DNA of 52,494 bases, taken from Pirellula sp. (lineage in GTDB: Bacteria; Planctomycetota; Planctomycetia; Pirellulales; Pirellulaceae). The notes beneath the pieces are model-generated. The model made no database searches. It worked only from the letters and a program-made list of their open reading frames with translations, and had not been told where the DNA came from. The position numbers and the translations under genes are program-made. Shown here piece by piece: positions 1 through 50,111 of this stretch (position 1 is the first letter of the stretch; each line of letters starts with the position of its first letter). Location of the stretch: assembly GCA_025459355.1 (NCBI GenBank), contig JALOQS010000010.1, forward strand, positions 1 through 52,494. Reading direction: 5' to 3'.

Positions 1-237
1 AATGACAATCTCGCCAAATTTGCCAACGGCAACGATTTTCTTATCGGCAACCAATATCACTCCGTCAATGATCGGATCACCAACACTGGTCAAGACTTTA
101 CCGGCACGAATGGCAACGCTAGGCTTAGGTGCAGCGGGTTGTTCCGCCGTCGGTTCTTGTCCGAACGCTACGTCACGACCACAGCTAAGGGCCAGTAGCA
201 ACGCACAGAGCTTCCACACATTTCTTCGATTCAACAT
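1..237 (-). CDS. Amidohydrolase-family protein, N-terminal fragment (continues left of window)
   Basis: Reverse-strand translation MLNRRNVWKLCALLLALSCGRDVAFGQEPTAEQPAAPKPSVAIRAGKVLTSVGDPIIDGVILVADKKIVAVGKFGEIVI: signal peptide plus the N-terminal beta-sandwich typical of amidohydrolases. ATG at 237-235 overlaps the upstream gene's TAA by 1 nt. Confidence 0.8.
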   Translation of the reverse strand, partial: MLNRRNVWKLCALLLALSCGRDVAFGQEPTAEQPAAPKPSVAIRAGKVLTSVGDPIIDGVILVADKKIVAVGKFGEIVI

Positions 238-2876
238 TATTGCGAATCCTTTTCGTAAACTATTTGCCCGTCGATGACAACGGCCAGTACCTCGGACGCT
301 AGATCAAGCGGCGAACCACTCAATACGACAAAGTCAGCATCTTTACCGACCTCTAGAGATCCAACTGAACCTAGCTGAAAAATTTGACTGGCTCGATCGG
401 TCAATCCACTCAAAGCAACTTGTCGACCAAGTCCCTTGTAAACGGAATAAGAAACCGCATCCGCCAATCCAGCCGCTCGCGCCGCAGCATTGGATTGAAA
501 CAAAAATGGAACGGAGTGAAGTGATAACTCGATCGGTATATTGACCGTTTTATCGCGAACCGTTTTCGTTAACGATGGCCCGACAACAATCGGTATCGAA
601 TGCTTGTGCGCGGTCTCGACCATTTTTGATGCCACATCGCCACCGACAATAACCAAAGCTAACCCATACTCTTCTTTGAACACGCGAATCGCAACATCGA
701 ACAGTGCATCCTCCTTGACCTCCACCATTGCCACAATCTTCTTGGCAAACAAATCACGGAATGGTTCCAAGTTCGCAAGCACGCGTGGCTTCTGAGGCTC
801 TTTAGGCATTTCAGGAGCTTTGAGCTCGGCCACTTCGCTAGGCTTTTCTTGGCTGGGCTTTTCTTGTTTGCTCGAACCAACATCTTCAGGCTTTGTCACA
901 CCGTTCGGTTTGCTGTCTGAAGCGGGCAGCTGTGTAACCGGTGCCGGTGCCTCTTTCTTTTCCGTCGGCTGCGTTGCTCCCCCGTCGGTCTTCTTGGCTT
1001 CTTCTAACTTCTTAGCTTCCTCAGCCTTCTTAGCTTCAGCAGCCTTTAGTGCCTCGTCATACTTTTTCTTGGCATCGTCGTACTCTTTCTTCTTACGCTC
1101 GTAGTCGGCGTACTCGCTCTCATACTTGGTCCAACTGTCGGTATATTGCTTGGCCGTTGCGAGCGTTCTCTTAATCGAGGATTCCGCCGCGCTTACCGTC
1201 CCGGAAAGTGCAAATCGAAGCGCTACCGGATCTTTCAAAACTCGCGGCTTATCTCCCAGCTTGAACGCAACGACAGGGCTCGGCAGTTGCGTGGAACTTA
1301 AAAAGGCCGTGGTCAACCCACCTTTTCTAGCCGCTTGAATCGATTCATCATCCATCGCCAATAGATCCCCCAGCTTGGTTTCTAACCCAACCTGAGCTGT
1401 CAACGGCGATCCCAGTCCAAGCTGCGACCCAACATCGATAAAGCCTGGAACGATGACTCCATTGGGAAAATGTTTGCGATCAGCGTTGGTCGGAATCGAA
1501 ACCTCTTTCCCAACTCCAATCAGCTTGCCGTTAGCCACAGCAATCATTCCGTTAGACACAACTCCGGTCGGCGTATAGATGGCCGATGCACTATACAACG
1601 AACCGGATGACTCGCCGACAGATTGATACTCTTTCTTGCCATTGACATAGGTTTCTAAAATCTCGGTGCCGTCTCGGAGCGGCTCGCCGGTCAATACGAG
1701 GAAATCGGCATCCGCCCCAGCTCTAAGCACTCCGATCTTTCCTTCTAGCCCCGACATCTTGGCAGGGTTCGCCGTCATCATCCTGATTACTTGCTCAATC
1801 TTGATGCCGCTTCTCAAGAACGATTTGGCCAAGAACATGACATCTTTCAAGTCATCGTCCGAACCCGGTTGAATAGCCACTTTCGAATCAAGCCCCATGG
1901 CAATCAGTTTGGCGGCGTTCTTCCAACTCGGCGAGAAGGCTTCATTTTCATCGGTCGGTATCGCGGGATTAGCAACCGCACCAGGGCTCGCATCAGGTCT
2001 CAAAACGACTCCCACGAAATCGGTTTCTTTCCACATCGATTCGTCTTCGAAGGGAACAACCGACGTCGGGAAAACCAACATCCAATTCAATTCGAACCGT
2101 TTCGCCAACTTGATGGCCGCTTCCACTTCGGACTGAGTCTCGGCGACAATGCGAAACGGCGATTTATTGGCAATTGCGAAAGCCAAAGCCTCAAGCCGAG
2201 CATCGTTTACGGCATCCGCCTCACGACTCGATTCTAACAGCGCTGCCAATCCGGACACTTGCTCCAGATAACTCGCACCAATCTGGGGGCGCGTTGGTTC
2301 CAATGGCCGATCGACGGAGACCGCGCCGACAGGTGGCTCATACACGGTGGGTGGGTTTAGAGCGGACCTGGAAAGAACCACTTTGATCCCGCTAGTATCT
2401 TTTAGTCTCTTTGTGTCCGGTAGTCCTTTGCCCAATTTGACCATTCCAGACTGACCGGGCAATAGACGTCGATTGGCAGGGGCAATATGGACGCTCGTTA
2501 CTCCGGACGACAGATACTGATCATATTCGCCGTAAAAATCAAAGGCATCGATGGCGCGATACTCCGGTGTAACGTTTCGTTCGTCGTCGGTGCTACCAAT
2601 GCCAATCGACGTTTCCATCGCAACAATACCAGGCATCACGGTCCGCCCGTTGAGGTTGTGCCGTTTCGCTTGAGGAGGAATGGTAACGTCGGTCGCCGAT
2701 CCAACGCTCTGAATCTTGCCCCCCTCGACGATGATCACCGCGTTTTTGATCGGCTCTCCATCACCCGGCCAAAGAGTATCGACAAAGTATGCATCGATAT
2801 CTCCCGCTCTCGCAGTTGATGCGATCAGCAACAGCGCGAGACTGCAAAGATGTTTCATGTTCATAGTGAATCGCAT
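237..2876 (-). CDS. Tandem (two-domain) amidohydrolase-like secreted protein
   Basis: ORF 237..2996; likely start at MRFTMNMKHLCSLALLLIASTARA (ATG 2876). Two copies of the C-terminal signature (GKIGVLRAGADADFLVLTGEPL; GSVGSLEVGKDADFVVLSGSPL), separated by a second N-terminal sandwich (YTPTGVVSNGMIAVANGKLIGVG). Confidence 0.85.
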   Translation of the reverse strand: MRFTMNMKHLCSLALLLIASTARAGDIDAYFVDTLWPGDGEPIKNAVIIVEGGKIQSVGSATDVTIPPQAKRHNLNGRTVMPGIVAMETSIGIGSTDDERNVTPEYRAIDAFDFYGEYDQYLSSGVTSVHIAPANRRLLPGQSGMVKLGKGLPDTKRLKDTSGIKVVLSRSALNPPTVYEPPVGAVSVDRPLEPTRPQIGASYLEQVSGLAALLESSREADAVNDARLEALAFAIANKSPFRIVAETQSEVEAAIKLAKRFELNWMLVFPTSVVPFEDESMWKETDFVGVVLRPDASPGAVANPAIPTDENEAFSPSWKNAAKLIAMGLDSKVAIQPGSDDDLKDVMFLAKSFLRSGIKIEQVIRMMTANPAKMSGLEGKIGVLRAGADADFLVLTGEPLRDGTEILETYVNGKKEYQSVGESSGSLYSASAIYTPTGVVSNGMIAVANGKLIGVGKEVSIPTNADRKHFPNGVIVPGFIDVGSQLGLGSPLTAQVGLETKLGDLLAMDDESIQAARKGGLTTAFLSSTQLPSPVVAFKLGDKPRVLKDPVALRFALSGTVSAAESSIKRTLATAKQYTDSWTKYESEYADYERKKKEYDDAKKKYDEALKAAEAKKAEEAKKLEEAKKTDGGATQPTEKKEAPAPVTQLPASDSKPNGVTKPEDVGSSKQEKPSQEKPSEVAELKAPEMPKEPQKPRVLANLEPFRDLFAKKIVAMVEVKEDALFDVAIRVFKEEYGLALVIVGGDVASKMVETAHKHSIPIVVGPSLTKTVRDKTVNIPIELSLHSVPFLFQSNAAARAAGLADAVSYSVYKGLGRQVALSGLTDRASQIFQLGSVGSLEVGKDADFVVLSGSPLDLASEVLAVVIDGQIVYEKDSQ

Positions 2877-2880
2877 GTCC

Positions 2881-4218
2881 TTAATCCGCTGACGGGGCAA
2901 GTAGACGAGCGAGTTTCTCATCTTGGGAGCGATCATAAACCACTTCTCCACGAACGATGGTCTTCTCGACCCACGTTTCAAGCTTGAGTGGTTCACCGGT
3001 CAAAATCACAAGATCCGCGTCCTTGCCCGCTTCGATGGATCCGACAAATTCATCGATCCCCAACATCTTGGCTGGAACGATCGATAGCGTCTTGAGAGCT
3101 TCTCCCTCAGACATTCCATTTTTCACCGCTACCGCTGCTTGATACCAGAAGTAACTGCTCGCTGAAGTCGTACGGGCCGAACTTTCCGAGGTCTGAAAAA
3201 CAAAGGGTACGCCGGCGTCTTGGAAAACCTTGGTCAGTATAACCTTGCTATCTTTCTTGGTTCGCGGATCGGTCTCCCAGAAGATAAGTGTCGGATCTAA
3301 GACGACTGGTTGCTTGGTGCCCTTTAGCAATTCCGCAGCCTTGTAGGTGTTTCGACCTAACACAAATGTTGCGTTGAGCGAGTAATCTTTAACCAGTGAC
3401 TGCGCCGTGGTAACATCCATCGCGGTATCGCAGTAAAGGAAAACAGGCAGTTTGCCTTGCACGACCGCCATCATCGCATCTTGCCCTCGGCTAAGTTCGG
3501 CGGCTGAAGGAGGAGGTGCTCCATCGGCCGGTGCTTCAGCATTGGTTTCACCAGGCTGTTCGGTTGGTTTCTGTTCGTTGTTAGCTTCGCCGGTTGCTTC
3601 GGCGGGCTTATCCCCTTTTTCTGCTTCAGGTTGATTTTTCTTTTCAACCGCAATCTTGGCCTTCTCTAGTTCTCTTCTAAGTTTGGAGATATGGGCCATT
3701 CGACTTCCTGAAGTGGGTCGAAGAGAAATCTTCATCCCAACGTCCCGTTTCACAATCATGTCATTTACGTATTGACCCGATGTTTTCAACACGACGCCGT
3801 GACCACCGATGAGCGTGCTATTTCCGGGAACAATCGCAGCGGTCGTCACTCCGCTTCGTCGACACTCTTCAAAGAACTCCATGACTGGATCGATACCATC
3901 CACCACGGATAGAAACGGCACATTTTCATTTCGTTCATTCGCTTGCCCCATCCCCTCGGAGGTATGTGGATCGATGAAGCCAGGCATTACCACTTGTCCG
4001 GTTATATCTAAAACCTTGGCTTCGAGCGGGACCTTGATGTCTGCGCCGACGGCTTCGATTTTGCCATCGCGAACAATGATGGTCCCTTTCTCGATCGGTT
4101 CGCCTGCCAAGGTGATGATCTTGCCGCCGACGATGGCGAGCGTATCGTTACCCATTCCGGTATTGCAAGCACCCCAAAAGGACACCAAAGAACAAACGGC
4201 AATCTTAATCGTTTTCAT
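2881..4218 (-). CDS. Amidohydrolase-like secreted protein
   Basis: ORF 2881..4365; likely start MKTIKIAVCSLVSFWGACNTG (ATG 4218) preceded by GGGGAG. C-terminal signature GSIEAGKDADLVILTGEPL. Confidence 0.85.
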   Translation of the reverse strand: MKTIKIAVCSLVSFWGACNTGMGNDTLAIVGGKIITLAGEPIEKGTIIVRDGKIEAVGADIKVPLEAKVLDITGQVVMPGFIDPHTSEGMGQANERNENVPFLSVVDGIDPVMEFFEECRRSGVTTAAIVPGNSTLIGGHGVVLKTSGQYVNDMIVKRDVGMKISLRPTSGSRMAHISKLRRELEKAKIAVEKKNQPEAEKGDKPAEATGEANNEQKPTEQPGETNAEAPADGAPPPSAAELSRGQDAMMAVVQGKLPVFLYCDTAMDVTTAQSLVKDYSLNATFVLGRNTYKAAELLKGTKQPVVLDPTLIFWETDPRTKKDSKVILTKVFQDAGVPFVFQTSESSARTTSASSYFWYQAAVAVKNGMSEGEALKTLSIVPAKMLGIDEFVGSIEAGKDADLVILTGEPLKLETWVEKTIVRGEVVYDRSQDEKLARLLAPSAD

Positions 4219-4313
4219 TTTTACTCCCCTGAAACTTAGGTTGGAGTTGATGGATCTAGTGCGTAAACTCAAAGTCAATACTCCTAACCTATGAACCACA
4301 GTTTGAATCGAAA

Positions 4314-5588
4314 TCATTTCTTGTCCGATCCAGCTGAATGAATTTTTCCGTTGACCATGACCCACTGAATTGATGATGTGAACTCCAGTGGATCACCGTT
4401 AAAAGCAATCAAGTCGGCATCTTTATTGGTCTCGATGGAGCCAACCTGCTGGTCTATTTTCAAGATCTTAGCGGGACTCAACGTAATGCTCTTCATGGCC
4501 TGATTACGATCGAGTCCAAAGCGAGTCGCGAACCTCGCTTGATCAAGTAACTCGCTGCCGGCTAAACAAAAATCAATGCCCGCAGCCGCAAACTGACTCG
4601 CAACATTCCATCGACGCTCTGTCCCTTCAGGACCACGCAATCCTGCCGAGCTCGATCTCGATGTCAGGTCTGTGTATATGATCGATGGCTTGCGTTCGAT
4701 AATGTCAGCCATAATTCGATAAGCTTCATCACCACCGATTATGATGGGACGAACGCCAAACTCGTCTTGCAAAACGAACGTGCTACGAATGTCGACATCC
4801 TTGCGACTCACAGAGTAAATCGGCAACTCACCTTTCATGGCAGAGGCGATGATCGAACGGCTTTCCGGCGTAAGAAACGAAGCTGGTTGGTCGTTCTGTG
4901 TTTTGTGCATGGCGCTTCGCAAGATCCATACGACACCCATACGATTGGTTGGTTGACGCATAAAAATCGTATCAGGACGACCTCGTGCTTGGTTTCTTGA
5001 TGTGGGGTCGCTACTAAGCGCGATCGTCAAGCCATGCTTTTCGGTAAGGACCGTGGGCTTATCTTGGGAATGCCCTCCTCCACTGATTTTTATAATCGAG
5101 GAACAACCCGCGATGACACTTTGTGTTCCTGGTAACAAGTGAGCCGTCGTGATCCCTTCGTCAATCGCCTCTTTGAAATCCCTGGAATTGGGGTTGAGGG
5201 AAAATGACGTATAAAAGTCGGGTGCTACCTCTGTGGAAATCTCCGATGTTCCCCCAGCGATACCGTACGATGCGGCTGCATTCACCAAACCAGGCATGAC
5301 CCAATCGACCTCAACGGTTTCAATATCCGGAGCGTCGATCTGTCCTGCTACGATTTTGATCTTACCACTCTCTACTAAAACAGCGCCGGGAGAAATCGTC
5401 TCGCCCGTCCCAAGCACAACATGCTTGGCTCTAACGAGAATGACGTTGCTGTTTTCCGAATGGGCTGTATCGCGCTCGTTGCTGCGCGGTTCGCTGCTGC
5501 GTGGTTCGTTGCCGATTGATGTAAGAGTCGAGATCGATCCCAAAGTTAGGCTGCAAATCAGCAGCCCGAAAAACTTACGTCTTTGCAT
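4314..5588 (-). CDS. Amidohydrolase-like secreted protein
   Basis: 424 aa, MQRRKFFGLLICSLTLGS signal; C-terminal QVGSIETNKDADLIAFNGDPLEF. ATG overlaps the upstream TAA (TAATG). Confidence 0.82.
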   Translation of the reverse strand: MQRRKFFGLLICSLTLGSISTLTSIGNEPRSSEPRSNERDTAHSENSNVILVRAKHVVLGTGETISPGAVLVESGKIKIVAGQIDAPDIETVEVDWVMPGLVNAAASYGIAGGTSEISTEVAPDFYTSFSLNPNSRDFKEAIDEGITTAHLLPGTQSVIAGCSSIIKISGGGHSQDKPTVLTEKHGLTIALSSDPTSRNQARGRPDTIFMRQPTNRMGVVWILRSAMHKTQNDQPASFLTPESRSIIASAMKGELPIYSVSRKDVDIRSTFVLQDEFGVRPIIIGGDEAYRIMADIIERKPSIIYTDLTSRSSSAGLRGPEGTERRWNVASQFAAAGIDFCLAGSELLDQARFATRFGLDRNQAMKSITLSPAKILKIDQQVGSIETNKDADLIAFNGDPLEFTSSIQWVMVNGKIHSAGSDKK

Positions 5589-8383
5589 TATTGATTCTCC
5601 TCACTGACGATTATCTTGCCGTTTCGAACTCTCGCCAGGATCGTGCTCGAGAGATTGAGTGGGTCATCTGACCAAACCAAGAAATCCGCAGACTCGCCCT
5701 CCTTGAAGCCTACTTTTCCTTCGCATTCAGGAAAGAGTTTTGTATGACCACTCGAAATCGCAAAGCGTGCCCAATTCGGGTCCATCCCGTGCCTCACGGC
5801 CAAGCTCGCGGTGGCTCGAATTTGTGTTCCCGTTTCTCCCGCAAAGTAAACGTCAATTCCGCCCTTGTGGCAAGCGACGAGTTCATCCATGTAGACGGGA
5901 AAGTCACCTTCTTTTGTAGGCATTGCAATGATCGAGATTGCCAACTCTTTAAGCTCTGCTGCATACACTGACCAAAACGATGAGCCAATCAATGCAGCAC
6001 GCAATTTGTGATCACGAATAATTCGAATCGCGGCTTCTATCTCCGCTTCGTCGCTTACCTGGAATATGGCGAGTTGTTTACGATCTCGCAATTTTGCAAT
6101 GGCTTCGCTCCTCGACTTTTCGATGCTGGATAAAGTCGCGTCAGGAACAAACAATCTGGAGGGGGCTCGCTTTCCATCCAACGCATCACGAACAAACTTA
6201 ACCTGTCCTGCCAGACTCGATGGAAACCGATCGACATTGCGTGCCTCGGAGGACAAAACGATCTTGGCTCCGATTCGGTCAACTAATTTCGTTGGTGCCA
6301 GATCAGTGGAAACGAGCGACAACTGTCCTGCCAACGTGTTTGCTGAGGACGTGGTTAATCCCACCTTGAAAAGCCCGGTGCGTTCCATTCGTTGGCTGTT
6401 ACGCTGATCGGAGAGGGATAGGTCACTTGCACTTAGATGCGATGAATCGGAATCGGTGCCTCGTGCGTTCGCATCAATGCCGTAAGTCGAATAAACCGAC
6501 ACCAGTCCAGGCGTTATAAAAGCGTCCCCTAAATCGATTAACGATTCGTTCGTTGTTTGCGATTCCTCGGTCGTGGTTCCGACCTTTGTTATCTTTCCTG
6601 ATTCGAGGGCCAACTCTCCCGCCGACAGTCCTTGTGGAAGAAGTACTCGGGATGACTTCAACACAGTTCGATCCGCGAGTTGCGGTATGACTCGACGCGA
6701 TTCACCAACTTTCGAGACGCCGGATTGCGAATGGCTCGCAACCGCATCAGGCTTAGGCTCTTTGTATAGCTTTCCGTTGGCCATAATGAGGCCAATCGAC
6801 GAAGCGGTATCAAGCGGGTTTCCGATAAAGCCAACCAAATCGGCTTTGTAGCCAGGGGCAATCACGCCAATCTGTTTCTCACAGCCGATCAATCGAGCGG
6901 CATCCACGGTTACCGATCGGAGCAGCGACTCATGACTGAACCCGGCAGTTGCCGACACGGCGAGGTGCTCTCGCAACATACGCGATCCATTTCGGATATT
7001 GGATTTCGTTTGAACAACCACGACTCCTTGATAGCCATTGAGTAGCAGAGAAAGTTGCTCGATGCGATCCGCTGACGCTTTTGAAGGAATCCCCAGATTG
7101 GCGAAAGGACCCACCACAATTGGTGCTCTCGATTTCTTAACCTCGGCCAGAGATGAGCCTAGTTGATCAAGTCCCTCCCATACCCACTGCACCTCGGCAA
7201 AAGCTTTCTTAAGCTCCATCGCGTACCGAACATCGTTAGCATTTCGGACTTCAAATCGAACAGGTATCTGGCCAGTAATGACCCCTACTAACCGTTCCTT
7301 TACCAAATCTTTTTCTGGCTTAACGGGCTTCTTCGGAGTCTCTTTAGGTGGTGTCGCGGGGGCCGCTGCAGCGCCGTCTTTCGGTGCTGTCGGTTTATCT
7401 GTTGCTTCTGGTGGCATTGGTGTTCCGCCCGGATTAGGCGTACCAGATCCCGGCGTGCCAGATCCAGGCACTCCAGTACCCGGCGCAGGAGCAGGACCGG
7501 GACGTCGTTCTTCACCAGAATTCTCTCTGGACCGACGGGGGCGACCAGAACCTTCACCTGGTGAACGCTGGCTAGCATCAGCTGCCGTCGGTGCAACGTC
7601 TTGTTTAGGAGGTTCTGGTGTTTTGGCGGCATCCTCTTTGATTGCCTTCTCGTAGTCGTCCCACTTCTTTCTGTAGTCAGCGACACTCTGCAATGATTTC
7701 TTGATCGACTCAAAGCGAGCCGCTCGATCGCGATTCGATGGCGAATTGCCGAGCGACATCTGCAGACCAGCCGTTGGATTGAGGATATGCAATGAGCCTG
7801 GTGCACGAGGGGCAACCGAAACCGCAGCTCCGAGACCACTCATTGCACCTGCGGATGAAGGTTGCACGTAAACAGTCGTCACCCCGGCGTTTAAGACATC
7901 GGCCCAATCTTCAGCGAATGGATCCAGCGAATCGGTCGCGAGCAAACTGCCGTCGCTCGAGCCTGCATCTCCCGGCGCATCTGACATCCAAAGCTGACTA
8001 TTAACATCAATCCATCCCGGAGTGATCGATAAGCCCTTTGCATCGATGACTTGAGCGTTTTCTGGAAGCTTTAAATTGCCGTCACCAACAGCTTCGATAA
8101 GCTCCCCTCGAATCACAATGCGACCATTTTCGATGACAGGGCCGGTCATTGTATGCACGGTTGCGTTAACAATCGCAACCGCTGGGTCCTGCCGAGCATA
8201 CGTGACTCTCGATTGAGACGAAAACGGAATGGCGAAAGCAATCACGACAAGCAGTCTTGCGGCCACCAACAACGATCTCGAAAAACAAGCCTGCGGGGAA
8301 GGGAAGGCATGGCAAGAAAATCTGCCGATTCGAGGCCCCATATCGAGGCGTTGAGTATGCCGTTTTTGCTTGTTATCGATCAT
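5588..8383 (-). CDS. Tandem (two-domain) amidohydrolase-like secreted protein
   Basis: ORF 5588..8446; likely ATG at 8383 (MIDNKQKRH...). Two C-terminal signatures (QIGVIAPGYKADLVGFIGNPL; KVGFKEGESADFLVWSDDPL). Pro/Gly/Arg-rich internal linker. Start uncertain. Confidence 0.82.
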   Translation of the reverse strand: MIDNKQKRHTQRLDMGPRIGRFSCHAFPSPQACFSRSLLVAARLLVVIAFAIPFSSQSRVTYARQDPAVAIVNATVHTMTGPVIENGRIVIRGELIEAVGDGNLKLPENAQVIDAKGLSITPGWIDVNSQLWMSDAPGDAGSSDGSLLATDSLDPFAEDWADVLNAGVTTVYVQPSSAGAMSGLGAAVSVAPRAPGSLHILNPTAGLQMSLGNSPSNRDRAARFESIKKSLQSVADYRKKWDDYEKAIKEDAAKTPEPPKQDVAPTAADASQRSPGEGSGRPRRSRENSGEERRPGPAPAPGTGVPGSGTPGSGTPNPGGTPMPPEATDKPTAPKDGAAAAPATPPKETPKKPVKPEKDLVKERLVGVITGQIPVRFEVRNANDVRYAMELKKAFAEVQWVWEGLDQLGSSLAEVKKSRAPIVVGPFANLGIPSKASADRIEQLSLLLNGYQGVVVVQTKSNIRNGSRMLREHLAVSATAGFSHESLLRSVTVDAARLIGCEKQIGVIAPGYKADLVGFIGNPLDTASSIGLIMANGKLYKEPKPDAVASHSQSGVSKVGESRRVIPQLADRTVLKSSRVLLPQGLSAGELALESGKITKVGTTTEESQTTNESLIDLGDAFITPGLVSVYSTYGIDANARGTDSDSSHLSASDLSLSDQRNSQRMERTGLFKVGLTTSSANTLAGQLSLVSTDLAPTKLVDRIGAKIVLSSEARNVDRFPSSLAGQVKFVRDALDGKRAPSRLFVPDATLSSIEKSRSEAIAKLRDRKQLAIFQVSDEAEIEAAIRIIRDHKLRAALIGSSFWSVYAAELKELAISIIAMPTKEGDFPVYMDELVACHKGGIDVYFAGETGTQIRATASLAVRHGMDPNWARFAISSGHTKLFPECEGKVGFKEGESADFLVWSDDPLNLSSTILARVRNGKIIVSEENQ

Positions 8384-8727: not shown

Positions 8728-10509
8728 CTATTTCGCCGCCGATGCTGGAACCTCGCGACGCCGTAACGCTACCACCCCCTCAACGAGCATCAGTCCCGCC
8801 AGAACCAATAACACGACGGCAATCCATGCCACGGGATCTCCGTTTATCCCTTTCGCGAATTTGCTGCGAACAATCGTCGTTAATGCCCACGAACTCATAA
8901 TGTACATCAATACAGCCGGGATCCCGGCCACAAACCAGACCCATGCCTTTCTACGCGTGCGCCACAGCCATACCGTGATCCCCAACAAAGTGAGCGCTGC
9001 CAACAATTGATTACTCGCCCCAAACAAATCCCAGAATGTTCTCCACACCGGAATCGGGTTCCCCTTAGCATCCAAGGTCTTTTGCATCACGAAAAAGATA
9101 GGGACTCCGGCGGTTAACAATGTCCCAAACCAACGTCCCGCTACACTTCGCCAACCGGTCAACTCCTGAATAATGAATCGCCCCAATCGCGTGCAGACAT
9201 CTAACGTGTCGTAAACAAACGTGTTGAACGCCATCAAAGCAAAGATGACGCCCCAAACTCTTGGTACACCAATCGACTCAACAAACGAACCAATCCCATT
9301 GGCGTAAATGAAATTGGGACTCGCACTAGCCAGACTCGAATTGACAGGTAGCAACATAACGCAACATAACGAAACGATTGCAACCATGGCTTCCAACAGC
9401 ATTGCGCCGTAACCAATTGGCTTTGCAGCTTTTTCACTCTTTAATTGCTTGGAGGTTGTCCCTGAACAAATCAAAGAGTGAAAACCAGAACAAGCGCCAC
9501 ATGCAATCGTGATGAACAAAAAGGGCATGATTGGTTTGTCTGAAGAAAACAACGATCCCTTGAACGCTGGCTGCTCGATCGTTTGCCCACCCAGCATGAT
9601 TCCGACCGCGCCTGCACCGAGCGCTGCATAAAGAAAGTATCCACCTAACTGACCGCGTGGTTGCAACATTAGCCACATCGGAGTCATAGACGCGATGGCA
9701 CAATAAAGCAACAGAAAAACATCCCAAATGCGAATCGCGTAATCGGCCGCTTGAGCTGGTGTTAAGTCGCTGTTGATTGACATCAGTATCGCATCGACAT
9801 TTAAGGGTATCAGCGGACCAACCCAAATCGCGACGACGACCAACGGCAGAAACAACCATGTTGCAGTTTGCATCGATATCTTGCCGCTACGTACCACGAG
9901 CCCCATGATGACGGGTAGCGTTAGATACAACAATGACGATGTTGCGACTCCGCCAGATTGAACCAGCAGCGTTGCATTGGGATCTGCCTTGGCTTCGGCA
10001 ATCGATTTGTAAGTTTTTTCCGTTGATAAATCGAGAGCTCCTACAAACATCGTTGCCGTAATGTCCGTGAACGCAACGACGATATAGACCAATGCCAACC
10101 AAACAAATGTGAGAAACAACAGATACGCTCGACGACTGATGTGAATGCGAACGACTTCGAGAATCGATGCCGCTTTGTGCCTGATCGATGCAACCAGAGT
10201 CGCAAAGTCATGCACACCACCAACGAATATCGCGCCCATCAATATCCAAAGTAACGCGGGTACCCAACCAAAAGCCACCCCTGCCAAGATAGGACCGACA
10301 ATAGGCCCCGCTGCCGCAATGGCTGAAAAATGCTGACTCAGTAACGGTGCCGTGTCGCATGGCGCGTAGTCGATGTCGTCTCTCATTGAGATTGCAGGTG
10401 TCGGGCTGCTGTCATCCAGCTTGAACAACCTCGCCAACAATCGACCGTACGTAAAATAGGCAATACTAAGCAACAGGGCCGAGCCAACTACGATCGCCAA
10501 CAATCCCAT
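8728..10509 (-). CDS. cstA: Carbon starvation protein CstA family transporter
   Basis: 593 aa polytopic protein; YTYGRLLARLF, QHFSAIAAAGPIVGPILAG, GGVHDFATLVASIRHKAASI are CstA hallmarks. Confidence 0.93.
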   Translation of the reverse strand: MGLLAIVVGSALLLSIAYFTYGRLLARLFKLDDSSPTPAISMRDDIDYAPCDTAPLLSQHFSAIAAAGPIVGPILAGVAFGWVPALLWILMGAIFVGGVHDFATLVASIRHKAASILEVVRIHISRRAYLLFLTFVWLALVYIVVAFTDITATMFVGALDLSTEKTYKSIAEAKADPNATLLVQSGGVATSSLLYLTLPVIMGLVVRSGKISMQTATWLFLPLVVVAIWVGPLIPLNVDAILMSINSDLTPAQAADYAIRIWDVFLLLYCAIASMTPMWLMLQPRGQLGGYFLYAALGAGAVGIMLGGQTIEQPAFKGSLFSSDKPIMPFLFITIACGACSGFHSLICSGTTSKQLKSEKAAKPIGYGAMLLEAMVAIVSLCCVMLLPVNSSLASASPNFIYANGIGSFVESIGVPRVWGVIFALMAFNTFVYDTLDVCTRLGRFIIQELTGWRSVAGRWFGTLLTAGVPIFFVMQKTLDAKGNPIPVWRTFWDLFGASNQLLAALTLLGITVWLWRTRRKAWVWFVAGIPAVLMYIMSSWALTTIVRSKFAKGINGDPVAWIAVVLLVLAGLMLVEGVVALRRREVPASAAK

Positions 10510-48286: not shown

Positions 48287-49510
48287 TCACTTATCGAGCT
48301 TGTGTACGATGCGACCGGATAAGTAGACATGCTCCACTTCCAGTTGGTTCGATAAAGTTACGAAATCCGCTTTCTTGCCAACAGAAATACTACCTACTTG
48401 AGTGGCTATGCCTGTTCTTTCGGCCGGTGTCAATGACGCCATGCGAATGATTTCATGCAGTGGAATGTCAGTTGATGTCGCCACGTTTCTTACCATCGAA
48501 TCGAGTGCCATGACCGAACTGGCGAGACCGCCCTCTTGGGTGCGCCCCACTGTTCCATCGCTATAGATCCAATTCTCGTCCTTTTGATCACCAAAAGCAT
48601 ATCGGCCCGAAGGCATATCCAACGCTCGATTGCAATCACTCACTAGGCAAAGCCGATGGCATCCCTTCATCTGCCAAGCGAATCGAATTAATTCGGGGCT
48701 AAGATGACAGCCATCAGCAATAACCTCAGTGCTCATCTCGGGATTGCTCAGCACGTACTCTGCCATGCTAGCCTGCATGGGGAATCCAAACCTTGGGCGT
48801 AACGATACGACCGAGCTCATCGCGCACCAAAAATGATCAACATGCCGCATCCCTAACTGAAACGCAGCATCCATCTCTCCCCAACTGGAATTGGAGTGCC
48901 CGCATGTAATCAGACATCCGTTACGTGATGCCATGCGATAGAAGTCAGCCGCTCCCTCCAATTCGGCAGCACAAGTGGCAATCTTTATAATGCCTGTTGC
49001 AAAATACTCGACCGCTTCTTCGACCGTTGGTATTCGACAGCCTGACTTGGTATGGCAGCCTACCTTATCTTCTGCAAAATAGGGACCGTAAAGATGGACT
49101 CCGTGAATTCTCGGCAAATCGGAATGCGATTTAGAATTCGAGTCCGGTGCATCGCGTTGTTCTATGACTCTCTTTGTCGCTCGGAGCATCTGCATAATCT
49201 GCAGATGAGTGGCGGTGGTGCAAGTTGGAAAGAGGGATGTAACGCCGTGTTGCAAATGCGCACGAGAAGCCTCTCGTATAGCCAGCTCAGTCCCATCCAT
49301 AAAGTCGTGGCCTCGTCCGCCGTGGACGTGAATATCAACAAATCCAGGAGCGAGATAGCCGCCTTGAAGAGATATCAGCTCCGTTTGGGGCGGCAACTCC
49401 GATGGCATCGGCCCGATGTAGTCGATATGCCCTTCCCGGCAAATCACGCACACATTCGACGCAACGCCAGACTCTAGAATAATCTGTCCATTATGAAACA
49501 GGCTTATCAT
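48287..49510 (-). CDS. nagA: N-acetylglucosamine-6-phosphate deacetylase
   Basis: ORF 48287..49537; GGYLAPGFVDIHVHGGRGHDFMDGT retains the HxH metal motif; GHSNSSWGEMDAAFQLGMRHVDHFWCAMS; LVSDCNRALDMPSG. Confidence 0.88.
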   Translation of the reverse strand: MISLFHNGQIILESGVASNVCVICREGHIDYIGPMPSELPPQTELISLQGGYLAPGFVDIHVHGGRGHDFMDGTELAIREASRAHLQHGVTSLFPTCTTATHLQIMQMLRATKRVIEQRDAPDSNSKSHSDLPRIHGVHLYGPYFAEDKVGCHTKSGCRIPTVEEAVEYFATGIIKIATCAAELEGAADFYRMASRNGCLITCGHSNSSWGEMDAAFQLGMRHVDHFWCAMSSVVSLRPRFGFPMQASMAEYVLSNPEMSTEVIADGCHLSPELIRFAWQMKGCHRLCLVSDCNRALDMPSGRYAFGDQKDENWIYSDGTVGRTQEGGLASSVMALDSMVRNVATSTDIPLHEIIRMASLTPAERTGIATQVGSISVGKKADFVTLSNQLEVEHVYLSGRIVHKLDK

Positions 49511-50111
49511 GTTGTGACCACCAATCGTACATGTCAAAGAGGGATTCTCTCAAGTTCTGCTTATGCTTCTCGCGCGACGCTCGCCAATGCTCCGAATCGA
49601 TCGCGCGGTTTAACAAATCAGGAGACTGCTTTTCCAGTAGCTTAGATAAAATCCATCGCTCAGTCGTTTCATCGACTGACGTCTTCCACAAAACCGAGCA
49701 ACCGAAGAATGGGCTGTGCGATGTTGCAATGACTGGCAACCGGCGCCGCCTGGCAGAAAAACAGACCTGCAGCCTTCGCAGGATCGACAATTGCTCAAAT
49801 CCATCGAGCAAAACTAAGTCAAAGAATCGCCATCTTGAGAATGATTGAACGAAATGTTGCGCCGATCTATGGTCGCGATTCAAAAACAAAGACTCAATTC
49901 GAATCTCAGGCTCAAGCCGAATAAGCTCCTTGGCCAATGTTCTTAAGAGCGTTGACTTGCCCGTTCCGTGTGGCCCGACGATAAGCGAACAGCCTCTTTG
50001 ATTGCGGCAATGCTTGGCGAACACCTCCCACTGTTGTCTGCCAAAAAACTCATAATCGATGGCTCCTGGCTGAAAACACTTGGTGGAGAAGGGATTGGAG
50101 GAGTCTCGCAC
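49491..50111 (-). CDS. P-loop ATPase (AAA-like), 206 aa
   Basis: Walker A GPHGTGKST, Walker B-like DLVLLDGFEQL. End overlaps the nagA start by about 20 nt. Confidence 0.7.
   Translation of the reverse strand: MRDSSNPFSTKCFQPGAIDYEFFGRQQWEVFAKHCRNQRGCSLIVGPHGTGKSTLLRTLAKELIRLEPEIRIESLFLNRDHRSAQHFVQSFSRWRFFDLVLLDGFEQLSILRRLQVCFSARRRRLPVIATSHSPFFGCSVLWKTSVDETTERWILSKLLEKQSPDLLNRAIDSEHWRASREKHKQNLRESLFDMYDWWSQHDKPVS

Follow-up and report, generated by a model that had tools for sequence, protein, structure and literature searches.

A conserved planctomycetal gene array joins eight amidohydrolase-fold domains lacking the metal ligands to one ligand-intact paralogue

The stretch of DNA considered here (the window, 52,494 nucleotides from Pirellula sp., assembly GCA_025459355.1) constitutes an entire contig, G000:C54, of a draft genome in 459 contigs. 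According to the open reading frame listing, its minus strand encodes, between positions 237 and 8446, four complete proteins with six amidohydrolase-fold domains, and a fifth gene, which starts at position 237 and opens with a stretch resembling a signal peptide, is truncated at base 1. Since the window is the whole contig, the array is cut by the assembly and the seventh domain is unreadable there. A family search in the same genome found three further domains at the start of another contig, C268, which begins inside the fifth gene. The genes, labelled as slots A to G, are as follows:

5588..8341, minus strand: slot A, pseudoenzyme domains PGWIDVNSQLWMS and PGLVSVYSTYGID fused in one protein; signal-peptide-like N-terminus
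4314..5588, minus strand: slot B, one pseudoenzyme domain, PGLVNAAASYGIA; signal-peptide-like N-terminus
2881..4218, minus strand: slot C, one pseudoenzyme domain, PGFIDPHTSEGMG; start assigned from a GGGGAG ribosome-binding-like site
237..2876, minus strand: slot D, pseudoenzyme domains PGIVAMETSIGIG and PGFIDVGSQLGLG fused in one protein; signal-peptide-like N-terminus
1..237, minus strand: slot E, 5' part only, MLNRRNVWKLCALLLALSCGRDVAFGQ...; catalytic subunit by its ligand set, cut at the contig end
C268, about 1085-2467, beyond the window, after E: slot F, reading PGMVGLFYPVATG, without HxH
C268, about 2496-4112, beyond the window, after F: slot G, reading PGFVAISMTGVG, without HxH

The open reading frames of slots A, C and D reach to 8446, 4365 and 2996, respectively. 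Pfam PF01979/PF07969, which the earlier note had named as a check, match all four complete window proteins, chiefly in their C-terminal parts.

The remainder of slot E occupies G000:C268:1-1083 (L014). Read on the minus strand, the window ends in exactly the 45 bases with which C268 begins, and when the flanks are joined across this 45-nt overlap, an uninterrupted slot E protein of 424 amino acids results. In other genomes, one contig carries the order A to G without a break, as in G006 (L047), itself a one-contig genome; the proposed C54-C268 join is based on the overlap together with this shared order. The full predicted unit is A (two domains)-B-C-D (two domains)-E-F-G, that is, seven proteins and nine domains, eight of them dead and one live.

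The joined slot E protein reads PGLIDAHSHVGG, followed by VVVHTQ, IDHG and NTDAP, and so displays all five ligands of the metal centre, namely, the HxH of strand 1, the histidines of strands 5 and 6, and the aspartate of strand 8. The earlier note had described an array lacking HxH and, hence, metal catalysis. The first part holds for the six visible domains, which carry exactly the strand-1 motifs quoted there and none of which keeps the ligand set, but fails for the truncated fifth gene; likewise, the ligand set is missing from eight of the nine domains, whereas that of E, past the contig end, is invariably intact. The nagA gene of the window, offered as an internal contrast, indeed reads VDIHVHGG (48287-49537). 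The nearest solved relative of E by sequence is 3ooq, the amidohydrolase of Thermotoga maritima MSB8 (phmmer, 5e-51), in which the five ligand positions are identical. Compared with the NCBIfam equivalogs, slot E yielded no match above cut-off, the best being Xaa-Pro dipeptidase with 68.8 bits against a cut-off of 500. More generally, assignment of the window proteins to named families (imidazolonepropionase, Xaa-Pro dipeptidase, NagA, dihydroorotase and others) was rejected, as all fall far below the NCBIfam cut-offs, and so was a role in anti-phage defence, since E and A-D match no PADLOC model.

When considering the other eight domains, a basic question is whether they belong to the same fold at all. 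Each dead slot aligns with intact E with an hhalign probability of 99.4-100% over 343-377 columns, so that the likeness is not due to chance. Slots A-D, F and G accordingly belong, over their full length, to the amidohydrolase fold of composite beta sandwich and distorted barrel, as judged from hhalign and, for A and C, also from AlphaFold models searched with Foldseek. The slot C model (pLDDT 82.4, pTM 0.79) and the model of the 917-residue slot A protein (pLDDT 79.5, pTM 0.78) both have 3ooq as their best PDB match, with target-normalised TM scores of 0.81 and 0.82, respectively, which bears out the earlier claim that the fold has been kept.

The metal-ligand set, by contrast with the fold, is gone from these domains. 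All five ligands are intact in 139 out of 139 E domains, 53 of which belong to arrays where E is present as 2-5 tandem genes, whereas the complete set occurs in none of 641 non-E domains and the HxH pair in only nine of these (seven A2 and two D2); a few domains in both counts stem from contigs that were retrieved twice with separate handles. The 641 domains, each longer than 250 residues, were screened for the HxH motif and then by the context of their histidines, a motif-based procedure that would overlook a metal site with major rearrangements. The residual HxH was not accepted as evidence of activity: the A2 domains of L083, L084, L098 and L100, which were read fully, are without the ligands of strands 5, 6 and 8, the remaining cases being assessed from their His contexts, and the HxH matches in one B and one C domain (L091, L144) turned out to be artefacts of the regular expression. 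When the five ligand positions were mapped, column counts showed the first His to be retained in slot C (23 out of 23, the second His being gone) and often in A2 (15 of 20 relatives), while none of the other ligand positions in the dead slots is regularly retained. For the most divergent slots, the columns of strands 5, 6 and 8 may be placed a few residues off, and the His set is absent from these strands under either placement of the columns. Near the old pocket, slot C has invariant residues of its own (His85, Tyr262, Cys263 and Asp268).

How widespread is this arrangement? Among 294 genomes sampled from the phylum, an E-like match is present in 74 and G in 73; the two occur together in 71 genomes, E alone in three and G alone in two (Fisher p about 1e-61, uncorrected for relatedness). 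Both G-only genomes and two of the E-only ones are contig-end cases, and the third E-only genome carries a solo homologue. When 84,980 species genomes were scanned for E with two narrow peptide patterns, a weak test of occurrence outside Planctomycetota, 29 loci were retrieved, including one from Gemmatales (L089) and one from the cultured Tautonia sociabilis (L091); all belong to Planctomycetota or to metagenome-assembled genomes labelled 'bacterium', and the long loci among them contain complete arrays in a single order. With domains labelled by slot profiles, 100 non-duplicate loci with E show not a single violation of the slot order, the labels of A and B being less certain far from the lineage of the window, and the succession C-D1-D2-E(n)-F-G is uninterrupted in 75 of these loci, most of the others being cut by contig ends. 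In genus g150, the unit is split into an A-D locus and an E-G locus, and both halves are retained; L147, an apparent exception with E-F-G only, ceased to be one when its A-D half was located at another locus. The putative seven-gene A-G operon is, as far as this sampling goes, characteristic of Planctomycetota. Within the genus of the window, clear slot A orthologues are found in four of 24 genomes (G006, G009, G016 and G024, among G001-G024); given the old age of the array, this patchiness would be the product of repeated loss or of transfer as a unit.

The slots appear to be ancient. An LG+G4 tree of 164 domains resolves each of B, C, D1, D2, E, F and G as a single clade (support 96-100), and two changes are required for A1 and likewise for A2; hence, the slots were distinct before the sampled lineages parted, or the unit travelled whole. 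Members of slot E share a mean pairwise identity of 0.69, as against 0.34-0.51 within the remaining slots. Between L083 and L084, E has a dN/dS of 0.03 and the dead genes have values of 0.05-0.09; other usable comparisons give 0.07-0.20 (the L089/L090 value for slot C, inflated by an out-of-gene extension, was left out). Since these values are well below 1, the dead genes are maintained under a looser constraint than E, in line with the purifying selection that the earlier note had surmised.

Outside the array, nothing comparable is conserved: no flanking gene family is common to more than two array loci. The order is therefore kept inside the unit, not around it, and the neighbours give no clue to the substrate. 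In the window, a gene for a carbon starvation CstA-family transporter lies directly upstream of the array (8728-10509); it was rejected as a hint at function because it is not conserved next to other arrays. Within the unit, TAATG stop/start overlaps link A to B and D to E, and these two overlaps, together with the short gaps elsewhere, suggest translational coupling. All seven proteins begin with a basic stretch followed by a hydrophobic one, so that, judging from the N-termini and not from a dedicated predictor, the A-G proteins are probably exported, as had been suggested before.

The array is not the only place where dead and live amidohydrolases meet. In the same genome, the gene after pyrB (G000:C126; L013:6028-7335) is dihydroorotase-like but reads PGLVDLGTEFGEPG, without DxHxH, and is likely a pseudo-dihydroorotase, which would make it a second kind of dead amidohydrolase-fold protein there. 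Other Pirellulales harbour sets of two genes in which one amidohydrolase is live (THSHVGG) and the other dead (L053, L054, L058 and L062), and the members of these sets form clades apart from the array slots; in L063 (4300-6960), live and dead barrels are fused in a single protein of 887 amino acids. What is, by its domain make-up, a putative third dead/live architecture is seen in L059, L060, L061 and L065, where proteins of about 1100-1370 amino acids have a dead first domain and a live second one (CHSHIATDGG-like) and are followed by a dead partner gene. These Pirellulales sets (L053-L066) resemble the array in that live domains (THSHVGG or CHSHIATDGG) have dead neighbours, in some cases within one chain, but involve only one or two dead domains.

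Some better known systems offer partial parallels. The collapsin response mediator (dihydropyrimidinase-related) proteins are non-catalytic oligomers of the amidohydrolase superfamily, to which slot C has weak profile matches; unlike the array proteins, they are eukaryotic and cytosolic and are not arrayed around an intact paralogue. The 3ooq protein resembles E in sequence and ligands, and the models of C and A in fold, but is a single protein with intact ligands; to our knowledge, it has no dead partner array, and the open-access literature yielded no papers on 3ooq or TM0814. In the heterohexameric metformin hydrolase MetCaCb, the metal cluster is present only in MetCa, and each subunit alone is inactive (PMC11271267). 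As in the array, adjacent paralogues comprise one protein with a metal centre and one metal-free pseudoenzyme, both of which are required (PMC11271267), but the enzyme belongs to the ureohydrolase superfamily, with another fold, and has one dead partner as against eight dead domains. The aspartate transcarbamoylase (ATCase) of P. aeruginosa needs an inactive dihydroorotase, pDHO, for its activity (PMC7053772), so that here, too, a dead barrel of the amidohydrolase superfamily is required for the activity of its complex (PMC7053772); the active partner, however, is an unrelated transcarbamoylase, and the complex is cytosolic and has one dead paralogue.

How, then, might the array function? We argue that, on balance, it probably encodes an exported hetero-oligomeric metallohydrolase in which pseudoenzyme subunits hold, regulate or feed a single type of catalytic subunit, E. 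The multi-protein assembly that had been suggested earlier is now the best reading of the locus; the physical complex, its export, the activity of E and the roles of the partners are what we infer from the sequences. In the most likely scenario, the ancestor would have been a homo-oligomeric hydrolase of the 3ooq type, and its duplication would have given a hetero-oligomer, in which E would act as a metal-dependent hydrolase and A1, A2, B, C, D1, D2, F and G as its obligate pseudoenzyme partners. The dead barrels could stabilise E, could complete its pocket or control access to it, or could bind and present a substrate whose size or variety exceeds what one barrel can handle. The strict order, the all-or-none inheritance, the two-barrel make-up of the A and D proteins and the dead-live fusion in L063 are pointers to physical association, though not proof of it; as in enzyme-pseudoenzyme hetero-oligomers, the dead paralogues are encoded beside the live one and inherited with it. 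The slower evolution of E is compatible with E being a hub, and also with loosely coupled partners.

E occurs in 2-5 tandem copies at 18 loci, every copy being ligand-intact, and four or five copies stand beside single dead slots in L096, L097, L140, L148, L151, L164 and L166. Accordingly, a fixed particle with one of each subunit is not general, unless the E copies are alternatives. The tandem E genes next to single dead slots suggest just such alternative catalytic subunits on one chassis, and lineages might alter specificity by duplicating E alone. Whether the unit is, in its strict form, an exported nine-barrel holoenzyme with one metal centre, where a fixed chassis of eight domains receives E as an exchangeable cartridge diversified by lineage, is a more tentative matter, and we put it forward as a conjecture somewhat short of even odds.

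Several considerations weigh against a complex. A plain operon of separately acting proteins would likewise hold the genes together, and the solo E-like proteins (3ooq; L110) show that the fold needs no partners in general. The dead barrels could, for instance, be periplasmic substrate-binding or carrier proteins that act apart from E, capturing, storing or relaying a small molecule or peptide, in which case co-expression with E would reflect a shared pathway rather than a single complex. Such a division of labour would fit the slot-specific conserved residues around the old pocket, like those of slot C, and the persistence of the array where it is split over two loci. It is, nevertheless, rather unlikely: the strict order in 100 loci, the fused A and D and the L063 fusion favour physical association, and eight separate binding domains per enzyme would be unusual. 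It is less plausible still that the dead slots are enzymes of a different chemistry, metal-free or differently ligated, a possibility that the earlier note had raised and that has gained no positive support. One might cite the slot-specific conserved His, Tyr, Cys and Arg residues and the nine A2 or D2 domains of other lineages with HxH, but a replacement ligand set is found in no slot, the HxH-bearing A2 and D2 domains lack the matching His pair of strands 5 and 6, and the ligand positions vary widely inside most slots.

An assembly that is mainly structural, be it part of the wall, an S-layer-like lattice or a matrix, with catalysis secondary, would account for the signal-peptide-like N-termini of all seven proteins and for so many related barrels being encoded together. 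We regard it as quite improbable, inasmuch as E, the most conserved slot, always keeps its catalytic ligands and is the one that is amplified, and the presence of the array across the phylum is patchy. Finally, the loss of metal ligands from eight domains might recall functionless, decaying duplicates; this notion is refuted by the dN/dS values, the phylum-wide orthology of the slots, the intact frames and the conserved order, and we give it practically no credence. The hetero-oligomeric hydrolase built around E is the reading that we retain.

We found no description of the array in the open-access literature. Partnerships of enzymes with pseudoenzymes are already known; what is new is the scale, with eight dead domains for a single live one, together with the constancy of the order and the spread through a phylum. 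The known pairs have come one at a time, and here eight dead domains are kept together with one live paralogue. The array also accounts for genes that are likely annotated as 'amidohydrolase' and that, for the most part, cannot be hydrolases. Taken together, it represents a natural experiment on the transition from homo-oligomer to hetero-oligomer and on the purpose of pseudoenzyme subunits, one that, with Tautonia sociabilis as a cultured carrier, is amenable to testing.
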